From positions 434,001-498,000 of the forward strand of contig NZ_BCWR01000005.1 of NCBI RefSeq assembly GCF_001592305.1: 64,000 nt of DNA. The letters are read 5' to 3'. Shown piece by piece: positions 29,343 to 61,897 of this stretch (position 1 is the first letter of the stretch; every line of letters begins with the position of its first letter). Below the pieces are notes generated by a model. It was not told where the DNA came from and did no database searches. It worked only from the letters and a program-made list of their open reading frames with translations. A program made the position numbers and the translations under genes. The DNA comes from Hydrogenophaga taeniospiralis CCUG 15921. Lineage in GTDB: Bacteria > Pseudomonadota > Gammaproteobacteria > Burkholderiales > Burkholderiaceae_C.

Positions 29343-29419
29343 CCCCCCGCGCTGCCTTCGGCATCACCCCCCAGGGGGTGATGCCAGCCGCCCGGCAAAG
29401 CCGGTTCGGCGGCATCCTT
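29343..29419 (+). repeat. Dispersed three-hairpin element, copy A
   Basis: About 77 bp beginning just after the binding-protein stop. It forms successive stem-loops: GCTGCCTTCGGCA-like, CACCCCCCAGGGGGTG, and GCCCGGC-AAA-GCCGG. It shares this order and most bases with copies at 34491-34561 (inverted) and 35766-35842. It separates the binding-protein gene from the permease genes and could stabilise or attenuate the upstream message. Confidence 0.8.
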
Positions 29420-34380: not shown

Positions 34381-34490
34381 GGTATCGACTTCATCCATTG
34401 AAAACCCGATGGCTTCTACCTATTCTGCAGACTCCTTCAACCACATTTTTCGCCCACCCGCCACGCCAGAGGCTGTCAATGCCAGGGAAC

Positions 34491-35758
<1,268 letters not shown>

Positions 35759-35765
35759 ACGACCC

Positions 35766-35842
35766 ACCCCCGCGCCGCCTGCGGCGTCACCCCCTCAAGG
35801 GGGCAATGCGAGTGGCCCGGCAGAGCCGGTTCCACCGCATCC
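35766..35842 (+). repeat. Dispersed three-hairpin element, copy C
   Basis: About 77 bp starting 8 bp after the pobA stop: CGCGCCGCCTGCGGCG, CCCCCTCAAGGGGG, then GGCCCGGCAGAGCCGG and CCGCATCC. It is in direct orientation to copy A and inverted to copy B. Confidence 0.8.
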
Positions 35843-35946
35843 TGGGTGACGTCACGTCGTGCCGGCGGTGGCGTTTGCGTTGGCACCGGGATTTCGCCGC
35901 AGCGTTGTCGCGCTCGCGCTTCGAAGCGACCTGACCAGGCGGTACA

Positions 35947-57121: not shown

Positions 57122-58066
57122 TCAGCCGGGGGGATGCTGTGCCGACTGAAGCGGGCCGTTGCCCAAGGCCGCCAGAACGTGGTCGATGAACACTCGCACT
57201 TTCAGCGGCATGTGCCGGTTGGCGGGATAGATGAGCGAGAACGGCCGTGAGCGCCCCGCGTAAGGCTGCAGCAGTTCAACAAGCTCGCCGCGCGCCAGGT
57301 CTTCCTCCACGATGAACCGGTAGGTCTGCAGCAAGCCCGCGCCGGCGCGCGCCAGGGTGACCACACCCAGCAGGTCCTCCGAGCAAGTGAACCCCCCGTC
57401 CGTGTTCACATCGATGTCCTGCCCGTCCAGGCGAAAGGCCCAGGGCACCCTTTGGCCGGTGGCGGGCAGCACGAACTGGATGCACTCGTGCTGCGCCAGG
57501 TCGTCCAGCGTCACAGGTCGCCCGGCCTGCGCCAGGTATTCGGGCGCGGCCACCACCACCAGCGCCGCGTCCATCAACTTGCGGGCGACCAGGCCCGAGT
57601 CGGGTTGCGCGCGTGCGCGCACGGCCAGGTCGAAGCCATCCGCGATGAAGTCCACGTTGCGGTTGCTCAGATGCACCTCGACCTGCACCTGCGGGTAGCG
57701 GCGGCGAAAACCCGGCAGCAGGCGCAACACGCCGTGGTGCCCCAGGGTGGTGGGCACGCTGATGCGCAGCACACCCGCCGGCGCCGCCTGGCGGCCCGTC
57801 AGCTCGCGCTCGGCCTCCACCAGCTGGTTGAGCGCCTGTCTGCACTGCGCCAGGTAGGCCCGACCTCCCTCGGTCAGGCGGATCCGGCGGGTGCTGCGCA
57901 CGAACAGGCGCACCTGCAAGCGCGCCTCCAGCCGTCCGATGGCCCGGCTGACTGCCGCAGGCGTGAGACCGGCCTGCGTCGCGGCAGCGGTAAAGCTTTC
58001 CAGCTCCGCCGCCAGGCAGAAAAGCTCGATGCTGCCGAGCATCACCGGGTCGAATTGCCGGGCCAT
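57122..58066 (-). CDS. LysR family transcriptional regulator
   Basis: A 314-residue LysR regulator: N-terminal winged helix (LGSIELFCLAAELESFTAAATQAGLTPAAVSRAIGRLEARL, in parts) and a substrate-binding domain (GVLRISVPTTLGHHGVLRLLP). It is divergent from the flavodoxin-like gene, the typical arrangement for its target. An ATTAC-N5-GTAAT palindrome lies just upstream of its start. Confidence 0.92.
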   Translation of the reverse strand: MARQFDPVMLGSIELFCLAAELESFTAAATQAGLTPAAVSRAIGRLEARLQVRLFVRSTRRIRLTEGGRAYLAQCRQALNQLVEAERELTGRQAAPAGVLRISVPTTLGHHGVLRLLPGFRRRYPQVQVEVHLSNRNVDFIADGFDLAVRARAQPDSGLVARKLMDAALVVVAAPEYLAQAGRPVTLDDLAQHECIQFVLPATGQRVPWAFRLDGQDIDVNTDGGFTCSEDLLGVVTLARAGAGLLQTYRFIVEEDLARGELVELLQPYAGRSRPFSLIYPANRHMPLKVRVFIDHVLAALGNGPLQSAQHPPG

Positions 58067-58068
58067 GA

Positions 58069-58083
58069 ATTACTCCATGTAAT
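58069..58083. promoter_or_regulatory. Putative LysR binding site
   Basis: ATTAC-TCCAT-GTAAT, a perfect 5-bp inverted repeat that fits the LysR T-N11-A pattern, 3 bp upstream of the lysR-type start and 89 bp before the divergent gene. Confidence 0.5.
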
Positions 58084-58171
58084 GAATGAATTGAAGCGAA
58101 GGCAGTTTATCTGCCTGAATGAAGTCAATAACCTTGCGCTCTCCCATCAACAAGGACAAGGAACCCAGGCA

Positions 58172-58726
58172 ATGACCTCCCCGATCAGCATCGTGTTTCA
58201 CAGTGGCTACGGCCACACGGCCAAAGTGGCGCAAGCGGTGGCCCAAGGCAGCGGCGCCACGCTGCTGGCCATCAACGAGCAGGGCGAGCTGCCGCCCGAG
58301 GGCTGGGACAGCCTGGCGGCATCGCGCGCCATCGTGTTTGGCTCGCCCACCTACATGGGCAGCGTCAGCTGGCAGTTCAAGAAATTCATGGATACCAGCT
58401 CAGCCGTCTGGGCCCGCCAGGGCTGGAAGGACAAGCTCGCCGCGGGCTTCACCAACAGTGCCGGCATCAACGGCGACAAGCTGTCCACCCTGCACACGCT
58501 GTTCACGCTGTCGCAGCAACACGCCATGCTCTGGGTGAGCACGGGAATGATGCCCAGCAACGCCAAGGCCTCGGCGCGTGACGACGTCAACTACCTGGCC
58601 TCTTTCGCCGGCCTGATGACGGCTACCCCGGCGGACGCGACGCCCGACGAGATGGTCGCCGGGGACCTCGAGACGGCACGGTTGTTCGGGCAACGCATCG
58701 CCGACTCGGTCCGGCGCCTGGGTTGA
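58172..58726 (+). CDS. Flavodoxin family protein (NAD(P)H:quinone oxidoreductase-like)
   Basis: A 184-residue flavodoxin-fold protein: IVFHSGYGHTAKVAQAV binds the phosphate of FMN, and IVFGSPTYMGSVSWQFKKFMD and FTNSAGINGDKLSTL resemble WrbA-like and related reductases. It probably reduces quinones or other electrophiles. The start at ATG 58172 has AAGGA upstream. It starts a three-gene run with a tautomerase and an NTF2-like protein, opposite the LysR gene. Confidence 0.85.
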   Translation: MTSPISIVFHSGYGHTAKVAQAVAQGSGATLLAINEQGELPPEGWDSLAASRAIVFGSPTYMGSVSWQFKKFMDTSSAVWARQGWKDKLAAGFTNSAGINGDKLSTLHTLFTLSQQHAMLWVSTGMMPSNAKASARDDVNYLASFAGLMTATPADATPDEMVAGDLETARLFGQRIADSVRRLG

Positions 58727-58737
58727 AGGAGGTCCAC

Positions 58738-58941
58738 ATGCCTTACGTCAACATCAAGGTCACGCGCGAAGGCGTGACGCGCGAACAGAAAGCCGAGCTC
58801 ATCGCCGGGGTGACAGACCTGCTGACACGGGTGCTGCAGAAGAACCCGGCCTTGACGCATGTGGTCATCGATGAAGTGGATCTGGACAACTGGGGACTGG
58901 GCGGCCTGACGGTGACCGAGTTCCGCCGGGGCAAGCCATGA
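58738..58941 (+). CDS. 4-oxalocrotonate tautomerase family protein
   Basis: A 67-residue tautomerase. The start at ATG 58738 gives MPYVNIKVTREGV, exposing Pro as the catalytic N-terminus after Met removal, and GAAGGAGG lies upstream; an earlier start would hide the Pro. HVVIDEVDLDNWGLGG is the second family block. Function is on dienol or keto-enol intermediates of aromatic-type catabolism. Its TGA lies within a 60-bp repeat (58937-58996). Confidence 0.9.
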   Translation: MPYVNIKVTREGVTREQKAELIAGVTDLLTRVLQKNPALTHVVIDEVDLDNWGLGGLTVTEFRRGKP

Positions 58942-58996
58942 GCGCCGCGCCGGGCCGTTCCCAAGCAAGCTCGCACCGCAGCCCGCAGGGCGAAGG
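58937..58996 (+). repeat. 60-bp stop-codon-associated repeat, copy 1
   Basis: Begins CATGAGCGCCGCGCCGGGCC and ends GCCCGCAGGGCGAAGG. It is identical over 60 bp to the inverted copy at 60283-60342. Its TGA (58939-58941) is the stop of the tautomerase gene, and its ATG is used as the start of the next gene. Confidence 0.9.
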
Positions 58997-59387
58997 CATT
59001 CCAACCACCGCCGCGCCCGACTTCAGCGGCGTGACCGCGGTGCTGGGTGACTACTTTGCCGGGCTGCGCCACAGCGACACCGCGCGTCTGAAGCGCGCCT
59101 TCCACCCCGAGGCGCACTACTTCTGCGCCACCGACGGCACGCTGCTGCACCTGGACATGGCGCGGTATTTCCCGGTCGTCGAGCAGCGGCCTTCACCCGC
59201 CAGCCAGGGGCACCCGCCCACGGACCGCATCCTGGCGATCGAATTCGCAGGCCCGGTGACGGCGTTTGCCAAGCTGGAGTGCTCCATCCCGCCCAAGTTC
59301 TTCACGGACTTCCTCGTCCTGCTCAAGCTGGACGGCCGCTGGCAGATCGTCAGCAAGGTCTTTCACTACGAGACCCGGCAGGAGTGA
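58938..59387 (+). CDS. NTF2-like nuclear transport factor 2 fold protein
   Basis: A 149-residue NTF2/SnoaL-fold protein (lumazine-binding-like subfamily): VTAVLGDYFAGLRHSDTARL, AFHPEAHYFCATDG and LLKLDGRWQIVSKVFHYE are the family blocks. Folding starts near residue 28. The first 20 residues (MSAAPGRSQASSHRSPQGEG) come entirely from the 60-bp repeat, so the protein has an adopted N-terminus or the true start lies further down, though no ATG is suitable before the conserved region. It overlaps the tautomerase stop by 4 bp and its end overlaps the convergent hydrolase gene by 38 bp. Confidence 0.8.
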   Translation: MSAAPGRSQASSHRSPQGEGIPTTAAPDFSGVTAVLGDYFAGLRHSDTARLKRAFHPEAHYFCATDGTLLHLDMARYFPVVEQRPSPASQGHPPTDRILAIEFAGPVTAFAKLECSIPPKFFTDFLVLLKLDGRWQIVSKVFHYETRQE

Positions 59388-60261
59388 GGCCGGCTTGCTG
59401 CGCGAGATGCAGGGGTGCGCCTGGATCGGCCAGGAAATCCAGCGCGATCCCGCTGAAATCCGCCGGCCGCTCCACCATGGGCGCATGCCCGCAGGGCGCG
59501 AGCACCACCGGCTTCGCGTGGGGCACCAGCCGCATCAGGGTGTCGAGGTGGCCCACGGGCAGGAAACGGTCCTGCTGGCCCCAGACCACGCAGGTGGGCG
59601 CCTGGATGCGCCGTGCCTTGGCATGGGAGTCGTCAATGACCGATGAGCGAAAGCCGCCCAGGTGGATCAAGCCCCGCAGGGTTTTCAGGAAGGCCGCCTG
59701 CGCGCCCGGTTGCCGGGCCAGCGCCACTTTTTCCCGCACCATCTCTGGCGTGATGCACGCCGGATCGGCCACCGCCGTTCGCCACAGCCGGGCGGTGCCG
59801 AACGCGGTGGGCCGGGTGAGCAGCTCGCCCAGCACCGGCAGCGAGGCCAGCCTGAAATCGAACAGGGTCGGGTTGTCCATGGCCGCCGGGGCCGAGAGCA
59901 CCAGCGAGCGCACCCGTTGCGGGGCCACCGCAGCGCACTCCATGGCCACCCGAGCGCCCAGCGAGTTGCCCACCAGCGACGCCTGATCCAGCCCCATGGC
60001 GTCCATGAACCCCAGCGTGAACCGGGCCAAGGCCGCCACGTCGTAGCTCGCATCGGCGGGCTTGGCCGTGAGCCCACACCCCAGCAGATCCAGCGCGTAT
60101 ACCCGGTGCCGCGTGGCCAGGGCGTGGATGCTGTGTTCCCACTCCAGCACCGAGCAGCCGATGCCGTGGAGGCACACCACCCCCGGCCCTTCCCGGCCCA
60201 CCTGCCAGTACCGGACTTGGTGGCCCTCTACGGTGGTGAACTGGTCATGGGGTCGGTTCAT
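59350..60261 (-). CDS. Alpha/beta-fold hydrolase
   Basis: A 303-residue alpha/beta hydrolase. HGIGCSVLEWEHS forms the oxyanion region, the nucleophile is Ser in LVGNSLGARVA, Asp in WGQQDRFLP and His in CGHAPMVERP. Substrate unknown; similar enzymes cleave ring-fission products or esters. It is the last gene of the minus-strand oxidation operon, 76 bp after the GMC gene, a gap filled by the second copy of the 60-bp repeat. Confidence 0.88.
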   Translation of the reverse strand: MNRPHDQFTTVEGHQVRYWQVGREGPGVVCLHGIGCSVLEWEHSIHALATRHRVYALDLLGCGLTAKPADASYDVAALARFTLGFMDAMGLDQASLVGNSLGARVAMECAAVAPQRVRSLVLSAPAAMDNPTLFDFRLASLPVLGELLTRPTAFGTARLWRTAVADPACITPEMVREKVALARQPGAQAAFLKTLRGLIHLGGFRSSVIDDSHAKARRIQAPTCVVWGQQDRFLPVGHLDTLMRLVPHAKPVVLAPCGHAPMVERPADFSGIALDFLADPGAPLHLAQQAGLTPAGSRSERPC

Positions 60262-60282
60262 GCTTTGGAGCTCACTGGAGTA

Positions 60283-60342
60283 CCTTCGCCCTGCGGGCTG
60301 CGGTGCGAGCTTGCTTGGGAACGGCCCGGCGCGGCGCTCATG
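60283..60342 (-). repeat. 60-bp stop-codon-associated repeat, copy 2 (inverted)
   Basis: Identical over 60 bp to 58937-58996 in reverse. On the minus strand its TGA (60338-60340) is the stop of the GMC gene. It occupies most of the spacer before the hydrolase gene and continues with weak similarity for about 7 bp. Confidence 0.9.
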
Positions 60343-61897
60343 CTTTGGCCTTGAGCATCTGCTCGCACACGTAGTGCGCCAGCGCGTACACCGTCTCCGA
60401 CGGGTTGTAGCCGATGGAGGTGGGCAGCAGGCTGGCGTCCACCACGTAGAGGTTTTTCACGTCGTGCGTCTCGCCGTGGGGGTTGACCACCGTCTTCTTC
60501 GGGTCGCGCCCCATGCGGCAGGTGCCCTGCGGGTGGAACGAGGTGTACTTGTAGCGAGCGGGTTCGTTCTTCAGGCCGCCGATGACCTTGTCCACGTCTT
60601 CCACGCGGTCGATGCTCGAGATGTGGGTGGTGGGCAGGTACAGCCGCTTAGCGCCCGAGGCGAACAGGATCTTGGCCGTGGCGATCAGCCCCTTTTTCAT
60701 GGACTCGAAGTCCTGGTCGTCCACAAAGTAGCTGATGTCTTTCTGTCCGTCCTTCCAGCTCACCTGGCCCACGTTCTGGTCATGGATCAGGCTGATCAGG
60801 CGGATGGTGTTCTTGTAGCCCGACATATAGGCCACATACGGCTTGCCCGTGCCCGGCTCGGCCTGGAAGCTGGCTTCCACCGGCTCCTGGATGGCGTTGA
60901 GCAGGATGTAGCCGCCCTTGTCGGGCAGGGTGTTCTGGTCCATGTACAGCGAGTGGGTGGCGCCGTGGAAATCGCGCACCTCGTGCGGAAACTCGGCGGT
61001 GACCGACATGGACGGATGGCACGCAAAGTTCTTGCCCACCTGTCCGCTGCTGTTGGCCAGCCCGCTCTTGAGCAACAACAACGGCGTCTGGATCGGGCCG
61101 GCCGCCAGCACCACCAGAGGCGCGTCGACCTGGATGTCCGCCTTCTTGCGGCCGGTGGCCGGGTCAATGATCTCGCCCTTGACGCCCACCGCCTTGCCCT
61201 CTTTCGACAGCAGCTCGGTGACGCGGGTGTCCGAATGGATGACGGCGCCGTGCGCCACCGCCCACGGCAGGTAGGTCACCAGCATGGACTGCTTGCGGTC
61301 GGTGGTGCAGCCGCTGAAGCAGAAGCCGGTCATGGCGCAGTCTTTGATGTTGCGCCGGGCCTTGCCCTGGGGGTAGCCCAGCTTGTCCATGCCCTGGCCG
61401 ATCAGCAGCGCGCCCGGGCTGGTTTCCTGCGGCCCCACCGTCTTGATGTGCAGATTGCGCTCCACCTTTTCAAAGATGGGCTTCATCACCGCCGGGGTGA
61501 GGTTGGTCAGGCCGAATTCCTTGGCCCAGAGCTTGAGGTAGTAGTCGGGCGTGCGAAAGCACAGCGCGGCGTTGACCACCGTGGAGCCGCCCACGCAGGC
61601 GCCCTGCAGCACCGAGATGTCGCCCGCCGAATTGGTCTGCCCGCCATGGTCCTGGTAGAGCGTGCCCATGGCCACGGCCAGCATCTCGGGGAACTTGTCG
61701 GAGGTGATGTACGGCCCGGCCTCCAGCACCACCACCTTCTTGCCCGCCTTGGCCAGCTCGTAGGCGGCGATGGCACCGCCCGCCCCCGAGCCCACCACCA
61801 CGGCGTCGGCCTTCAGGTGAAGCTGGCTGTCTTGGATGTCCGCGGCCTGGGTGACCTTGAGGCCTTGCTTTTCAACTTTGATCGCGTGTTTTTTCAT
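60338..61897 (-). CDS. GMC family oxidoreductase with probable Fe-S motif
   Basis: A 519-residue FAD-dependent dehydrogenase: FAD motif AVVVGSGAGGAIAAYELA, GMC signature GACVGGSTVVNAALCFRTP, and the C-terminal active-site region VDASLLPTSIGYNPSETVYALA. Cys187-x5-Cys193-x3-Cys197 has the spacing of the cysteines that hold the 3Fe-4S cluster in FAD-glucose/gluconate dehydrogenases. It has no signal peptide; the next upstream gene encodes a small Tat-signal protein that may carry it to the periplasm. Substrate: probably an alcohol or sugar; the downstream partner is an aldehyde dehydrogenase. Confidence 0.9.
   Translation of the reverse strand: MKKHAIKVEKQGLKVTQAADIQDSQLHLKADAVVVGSGAGGAIAAYELAKAGKKVVVLEAGPYITSDKFPEMLAVAMGTLYQDHGGQTNSAGDISVLQGACVGGSTVVNAALCFRTPDYYLKLWAKEFGLTNLTPAVMKPIFEKVERNLHIKTVGPQETSPGALLIGQGMDKLGYPQGKARRNIKDCAMTGFCFSGCTTDRKQSMLVTYLPWAVAHGAVIHSDTRVTELLSKEGKAVGVKGEIIDPATGRKKADIQVDAPLVVLAAGPIQTPLLLLKSGLANSSGQVGKNFACHPSMSVTAEFPHEVRDFHGATHSLYMDQNTLPDKGGYILLNAIQEPVEASFQAEPGTGKPYVAYMSGYKNTIRLISLIHDQNVGQVSWKDGQKDISYFVDDQDFESMKKGLIATAKILFASGAKRLYLPTTHISSIDRVEDVDKVIGGLKNEPARYKYTSFHPQGTCRMGRDPKKTVVNPHGETHDVKNLYVVDASLLPTSIGYNPSETVYALAHYVCEQMLKAKA

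Follow-up and report, generated by a model that had tools for sequence, protein, structure and literature searches.

Why should one short sequence occur twice, in opposite orientations, with each copy supplying the stop codon of the gene that runs into it? The question is raised by a 64,000-nucleotide (nt) stretch of Hydrogenophaga taeniospiralis CCUG 15921 (contig NZ_BCWR01000005.1, positions 434,001 to 498,000; hereafter the window), in which the 60-mers at 58937-58996 (+) and 60283-60342 (-) are identical and inverted. The first-pass annotation had pointed out this pair and proposed that the TGA in each copy is the stop of the upstream gene (tautomerase, GMC oxidoreductase), that a second gene starts in or after the repeat, and that a specific insertion or gene-linking mechanism is at work. 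Sequence comparison bears out the inverted identity, and open reading frames (ORFs) with their Pfam matches confirm both stops, as well as a second gene that starts within copy 1 (PF12893) or after copy 2 (a hydrolase). We conclude that the repeat is very probably a miniature, apparently non-autonomous mobile element of the Comamonadaceae and near relatives, which inserts at the RTGA of a gene start, most often at an ATGA stop/start overlap.

The element is repeated throughout its own 5.3 Mb genome. A covariance model was built from A1, an alignment of 38 A and B subfamily copies, which represent 38 of the 54 collected elements; partial, decayed and hairpin-chimeric elements were excluded and C-type hairpin repeats were kept out. 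The model detected 56 copies at E<=1e-3 on 15 contigs, two C-type chimeras counted among them, and 62 copies at E<=0.1. A BLAST search of the genome found 28 places below E=1e-3 with the 60-mer as query and 27 at E<=0.01 with the sister form B, partly the same places as for A. With 56 copies in the genome, the window pair is neither chance nor a local duplication. The first-pass annotation had itself allowed that the two might be the only copies, recently duplicated; local duplication or gene conversion of this kind would account for identity across 60 bp in the window, but neither for the 56 copies nor for the separate filled and empty histories of the two sites described below, and its probability is close to negligible. 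Two loci of the genome (L058 and L059; G000 C4:43231-43314 and C21:82880-82963) are chimeras of the element's first ~40 nt and a CCCCCTTGGGGGG hairpin repeat, which is itself repeated (41 matches to the chimera at E<=0.01, some of them to the element part).

Matches at E<=1e-3 are present in 61 of 67 genomes of the genus, the own genome counted, and at E<=1e-5 in 157 of 299 sampled genomes of the family, representing 82 of 126 genera, in a scan that scored at most 16 candidates per genome. Eleven of 300 genomes of the order have a match at E<=1e-7, four of them outside the family, and 2 of 370 genomes of the class have a match, these being the own genome and one congener. The 27 named stretches with an A-type copy, found with a search pattern that demands the left RTGA and hence gives no evidence for that base, came from Hydrogenophaga (13) and otherwise from a Rhodoferax metagenome-assembled genome (MAG), an Acidovorax MAG and unnamed Comamonadaceae or Betaproteobacteria MAGs. 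Four plasmid records carry matches, at six places in total. Outside the family, L233 (genome G575) and L231 (genome G578) contain a related ~60-nt unit with a different hairpin 1 and RTGA borders, arranged in G575 as a head-to-tail array, and a wider superfamily extending beyond the family is likely. Tandem head-to-tail arrays also occur for the element itself, and 6 of the 56 own-genome copies stand second in a tandem. In genome G008, which has 80 matches, locus L238 (C39:5254-6855) is a head-to-tail array of three 66-nt units.

Empty sites in relatives demonstrate insertion. Of 34 relative loci aligned at numbered junctions, 7 were read as empty, 5 as filled and 1 as a remnant (21 were too diverged at the junction and were left unscored). 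Junction 7 reads ...GCCATGAACCCC... in relatives G039, G035 and G032, and ...GCCATGA followed by the element and GTGAACCCC... in the own genome; junctions 14 (in G039), 15 (in G031 and G015) and 20 (in G033) are likewise empty. The sites of both window copies can be compared in the same way. The GMC/hydrolase site is empty in G045 (GGGCATGAACCG) and G047 (AAAGCGTGAAGCG), both plain stop/start overlaps, and holds a 26-nt derivative in G039. The tautomerase/PF12893 site is a plain RTGA overlap in G046, G029, G028 and G053, at lower identity, and by eye the RTGA of these four empty sites is in frame with the tautomerase. Insertion adds about 65-66 bp, and where the site is cleanest no host sequence is lost. 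Filled copies at junctions 7, 14 and 15 keep the ATGA of the empty site on the left and have GTGA as their right border. Terminal inverted repeats, as expected for a miniature inverted-repeat transposable element of the DDE type, were absent on inspection of A1, in which the ends GCGCC... and ...CTCCAGTGA are not mutual inverted repeats. On this comparison of filled and empty sequences, the element is a mobile unit.

The copies are tied to the genes on either side. In 35 of the 50 non-tandem own-genome copies the TGA closes a coding-like frame, defined as 40 codons or more with high third-position GC; of 1140 RTGA sites taken as controls from the DNA that flanks the same loci, 19 do so. Coding-like frames open at the second RTGA in 37 of the 56 copies; in seven others the frame is fused to the left ATG, and 12 show neither arrangement. 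The upstream stop and the downstream frame were found together in 25 of 56 copies, and both at one RTGA in 9 of 1140 controls. By a crude six-frame score for which there was no control, all 50 non-tandem copies have a downstream flank that is coding on the element strand, and 40 of the 50 have such a flank upstream. Stop linkage was also found in 19 of the 27 named stretches and, in other genera, in 35 of 39 usable copies from 22 genera among the matches listed, which are the top scorers (a fortieth, L213, ends at a contig edge and was dropped). Four places in the annotation of three plasmid records were compared. At three of them the final base of the left ATGA is also that of the upstream coding sequence (CDS), and the downstream CDS opens with the second RTGA; at the fourth, the downstream CDS starts 65 nt past the left A, and an IS110 transposase on the opposite strand is the closest upstream CDS listed. 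The most fitting reading of the target is an RTGA where a gene starts, which in most cases overlaps the stop of an upstream gene; the downstream gene is the more constant partner.

The stop linkage and the empty sites together support the specific insertion or gene-linking mechanism that had been proposed from the window, the linkage being far from random. The same figures bear on the idea that these are extragenic palindromes like the repetitive extragenic palindromic (REP) sequences and bacterial interspersed mosaic elements, their gene linkage a by-product of a dense genome. The element is short, GC-rich, hairpin-forming and multicopy, as this would have it, but dense packing predicts neither stop linkage at some forty times the control rate nor a minigene frame that is kept open (see below), making this explanation very improbable.

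The order of parts in the unit is a host ATGA, hairpin 1, hairpin 2 (GNNC-GCA-GNNC), a Shine-Dalgarno sequence, 7-8 nt, a second RTGA and the downstream gene. Among 81 copies (42 from the own genome and 39 from other genera), 76 have the second RTGA, and in these 76 a Shine-Dalgarno sequence was found in 72, with a distance to the second RTGA of 7 nt in 51 and 8 nt in 19 (70 of 76 together). The left-ATG frame is free of stops in all 76. Stops interrupt the two remaining frames in 8 and 2 copies, and when random substitutions on the B form were roughly simulated, about 12 copies acquired a stop in the ATG frame. Length follows the same frame. Among 108 copies with both RTGAs (45 of 56 from the own genome, 25 of 27 named and 38 of 39 from the family), 57 are 2 mod 3, 51 are 0 mod 3 and none is 1 mod 3, and the 13 copies that are neither 65 nor 66 long still fall in class 0 or 2. 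In class 2 the minigene ends in the second RTGA, and in class 0 it forms a leader fused to the next gene.

A strong Shine-Dalgarno sequence at near-constant spacing, ahead of same-direction coding sequence in 50 of 50 downstream flanks of non-tandem copies, might alternatively mean that the unit lands widely and that positive selection retains the copies in which its ribosome site tunes the ratio of two genes. We regard such a selected translation cassette as unlikely, given that the same sites are empty in close relatives and that a ribosome site alone explains neither the covarying stems nor the RTGA at both ends.

Evidence for structure comes from the two stems. For the ten stem pairs tested on A1, standard pairs occupy 96.6% of the cells, and shuffling lowers this to 80.9%; the covariation score is 0.389, or 0.145 when shuffled. 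For both measures none of 500 shuffles was as high. When the partner is shifted by 1-3 columns, pairing falls to 18-53%. The inner closing pair of hairpin 1 is G-C or C-G in all 38 aligned copies, and hairpin 2 of the B subfamily is GTGC-GCA-GCAC, in which two stem pairs are changed on both sides relative to A. The outer triplet of hairpin 1 is more variable: in a partial alignment of the 77 own-genome and other-genera copies with an identifiable right arm, it is fully paired in 24 (15 GCC/GGC, 5 CCC/GGG, 2 ACC/GGT and 2 others), and the largest group, 25 copies, is GCC/CAA, A-type in sequence and unpaired there.

Several observations weigh against a mobile element of this design or limit what the figures above can carry. 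Copies share ancestry, and the counts are not independent trials. In 15 of the 50 non-tandem copies no coding-like frame ends at the TGA, which means that stop overlap is not obligatory; the first-pass statement that the repeat always begins at an ORF stop thus stands as a linkage far above the control rate and is too strong in its "always". The downstream-start criterion is weak, as 33.8% of control RTGA sites pass it, and the copy at C1:678140 has ATAA instead of a second RTGA. At junction 20, the second tetranucleotide is ATGA, the same as in the empty site, leaving a target duplication possible there. With respect to the stems, only four pairs show double changes, a number reached by 263 of 500 shuffles, and the stem changes mostly follow the A/B split, amounting to few independent events. 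Folding energy is unremarkable (z of +1.2 for A and -1.5 for B), and the structure case thus rests on covariation that is itself limited. Finally, at the 30 Y1 transposase loci inspected (one in the own genome and 29 in relatives), no strong element match lies within ~1.5 kb, the eight weak ones, up to E=1, having a best E of 0.0067.

Precise insertion, orientation, the open minigene frame, the near-fixed Shine-Dalgarno spacing, the covarying stems and the head-to-tail arrays can be read from the sequences directly, and they suggest how the element might be tolerated. A ribosome finishing the upstream gene would restart at the left ATG and translate the 22-codon minigene or the fused leader. 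This translation would open hairpin 2, whose base contains the Shine-Dalgarno sequence, and the ribosome could then restart at the second RTGA or continue into the fused downstream gene. Translation of the two neighbors would thereby remain coupled, insertion would be cheap, and copies at such junctions would persist; both neighbors are probably still readable after insertion. Movement would probably be brought about by an enzyme acting in trans, which may recognize the hairpins and join the element 3´ of RTGA. The element also ends in RTGA, and each copy would thus itself be a target, which would give tandem arrays.

One candidate for the movement step, compatible with the mobile element we favor, is single-strand transposition of the IS200/IS605 or REP-associated tyrosine transposase (RAYT) type, with a Y1 enzyme that recognizes both hairpins and cuts 3´ of RTGA. 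The element is asymmetric, with a hairpin towards each end and similar border tetranucleotides, and the ATGA and GTGA borders of junctions 7, 14 and 15 fit this route. The ATGA right border of junction 20 fits it less well, and a 3-nt TGA duplication by another enzyme would yield identical products. The distribution of the enzyme points both ways: of 43 good genomes in the genus, 40 have at least one Y1_Tnp gene, but the element does not flank Y1 genes, which are present also in match-free genomes such as G005 and G016. We consider this route plausible, with a probability short of even. Over the genus as a whole, 55 of 66 genomes have Y1_Tnp matches, with two copies in just two genomes. The own genome has one such gene, RAYT-like (L088, G000 C18:62588-62911).

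How do the two copies in the window fit this description? They are its only two element copies above noise (the third-best match has E=0.041), and longer arms, 58929-59003 and 60276-60350, are 93% complementary across 75 nt. The tautomerase gene (PF01361; 58738..58941, +) ends with the TGA at 58939-58941, shared with the left ATGA of copy 1. This copy, a 66-nt unit of the A subfamily (58938..59007, +; R1 match of 86.4 bits), is bordered by the host ATGA at 58938-58941 and by the second-RTGA position at 59004-59007 (+), which reads ACCA. Between these lie the predicted hairpin 1 (58940..58972, +; outer arms GAGC/GCTC, inner stem GGG-CCGTT-CCC), hairpin 2 (58981..58991, +; GCCC-GCA-GGGC) and a Shine-Dalgarno-like GAAGG (58992..58996, +), 7 nt ahead of the second-RTGA position. 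The Lumazine_bd_2 gene (PF12893, NTF2 in the first-pass annotation; 58938..59387, +) is fused in frame to copy 1: its ORF starts at the element's own ATG, residues 1-22 of the protein derive from the element, and the Pfam domain spans residues 28-143.

On the other strand, the GMC oxidoreductase gene (PF00732, PF05199; 60338..61897, -) ends with the TGA at 60340-60338, shared with the left ATGA of copy 2. Copy 2, also of the A subfamily (60272..60341, -; R1 match of 96.0 bits), has borders at 60341-60338 (host ATGA) and 60275-60272 (GTGA, the second RTGA), predicted hairpins 1 and 2 at 60307..60339 and 60288..60298 (-), and the Shine-Dalgarno-like GAAGG in the sequence at 60283..60287 (-). Its downstream partner is the alpha/beta-hydrolase gene (PF00561; 59350..60261, -), which starts at 60261, 80 nt past the ATG of copy 2. 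A 27-codon frame (60258..60341, -) runs from the GMC stop (ATGA) to a TGA overlapping the hydrolase start (ATGA), with a 4-nt overlap with the neighboring gene at each end. Copy 2 is also flanked by an 11-nt direct repeat, CCAAAGCATGA (60258..60268 and 60338-60348, -), the 3´ one lying inside a 14-nt extra stretch. The CCAAAGCATGA sequence is single in G045 and G047, and the repeat could be a trace of copy 2 insertion or of later slippage. We do not claim a long target duplication, since the left and right RTGA often differ at the first base and the 11-nt repeat is absent at junctions 7, 14 and 15.

The inverted arrangement had also suggested that the segment between the copies could invert, for which the gene arrangement of relatives offers no support. 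G039, G045 and G047 have the hydrolase/GMC pair without an adjoining tautomerase match at E<=1e-20, and G045 has a similar tautomerase/PF12893 pair (67% identity) with its own element on a different contig. Given these separate gene pairs, the inverted arrangement looks like two independent insertions into neighboring targets. An Rfam scan of 58000-61000 gave one sub-threshold match, which is irrelevant. The window also contains another GC-rich hairpin repeat, of the CCCCCTTGAGGGGG ... GCCGAAGGCGGCGCGGGGG type and distinct from the element studied here, at 34482-34562, 35765-35845 and 29367-29412; two inverted CCCCCTTGAGGGGG ... GCCGAAGGCGGCGCGGGGG copies flank a FAD monooxygenase-like gene at 34575-35759 (named by eye).

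Taken further, this betaproteobacterial lineage may have its own family-wide class of transposing minigenes, which arose independently of the repeats of mycobacteria, target the start/stop overlap, use their two hairpins both for the transposase and for coupling, and in each genome alter or maintain the gene ratios of dozens of operons; we offer this extended interpretation tentatively. The findings suggest that insertion at ATGA overlaps with a minigene of the element's own exists outside mycobacteria. Many annotated proteins would then have element-derived N-termini or be preceded by element-derived leader peptides. The many natural pairs of filled and empty sites provide a direct test bed for translational coupling and target choice.

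Among described systems, a SCOOP-like peptide (PMC8448819) was considered and dropped, its motif lying in the C-terminus of an unknown protein. The Beta-proteobacterial repeat element (BRE) comprises small GC-rich repeats of about 90 bp (75-91) in Bordetella and Comamonadaceae, sometimes tandem, some of which overlap ORF ends by a few bases, as excerpted from PMC3110155. Compared by description only, the element here is 65-66 long, and the excerpted text describes no stop/start rule or minigene for BRE (PMC3110155). Among the literature matches listed, we found no description of such a Comamonadaceae element, BRE having been compared by description only.

REP sequences with their RAYTs are short hairpin repeats, possibly moved by single-strand transposition with a Y1 enzyme in trans, and have GTAG or CGTC as border tetranucleotide. 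In contrast, the border of the element here is RTGA, placed at gene starts, and no strong element match adjoins the Y1 genes examined. Rickettsia palindromic elements have spread while keeping frames open and lie in frame inside genes; frames are likewise open here, but the element sits at the junction of two genes.

The closest parallel in anatomy is with the mycobacterial interspersed repetitive units (MIRUs), which lie in the same direction as genes and have a D-TGA target. The original description is reportedly that of Supply et al. 1997, and to our knowledge the MIRU sequence differs from that of the element. The 2025 review PMC12548453 describes MIRUs as short mobile repeats located at start codons, whose internal ORF is coupled at -4. 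Like a MIRU, the element has a short ORF that overlaps both neighbors at RTGA/DTGA (ending in the second RTGA in 57 of 108 copies and in frame with the next gene in 51), inserts at start codons or start/stop overlaps, here backed by empty sites, and shares the orientation of adjacent genes (50 of 50 downstream, 40 of 50 upstream) and the occurrence of tandem copies. Its hosts belong to a different phylum from those of MIRUs, and the likeness is one of anatomy. By this analogy, and with no claim of kinship, the element would work like a MIRU; the two covarying stems, the near-fixed Shine-Dalgarno spacing and the 66-nt class that fuses a leader to the downstream protein may be features of its own.
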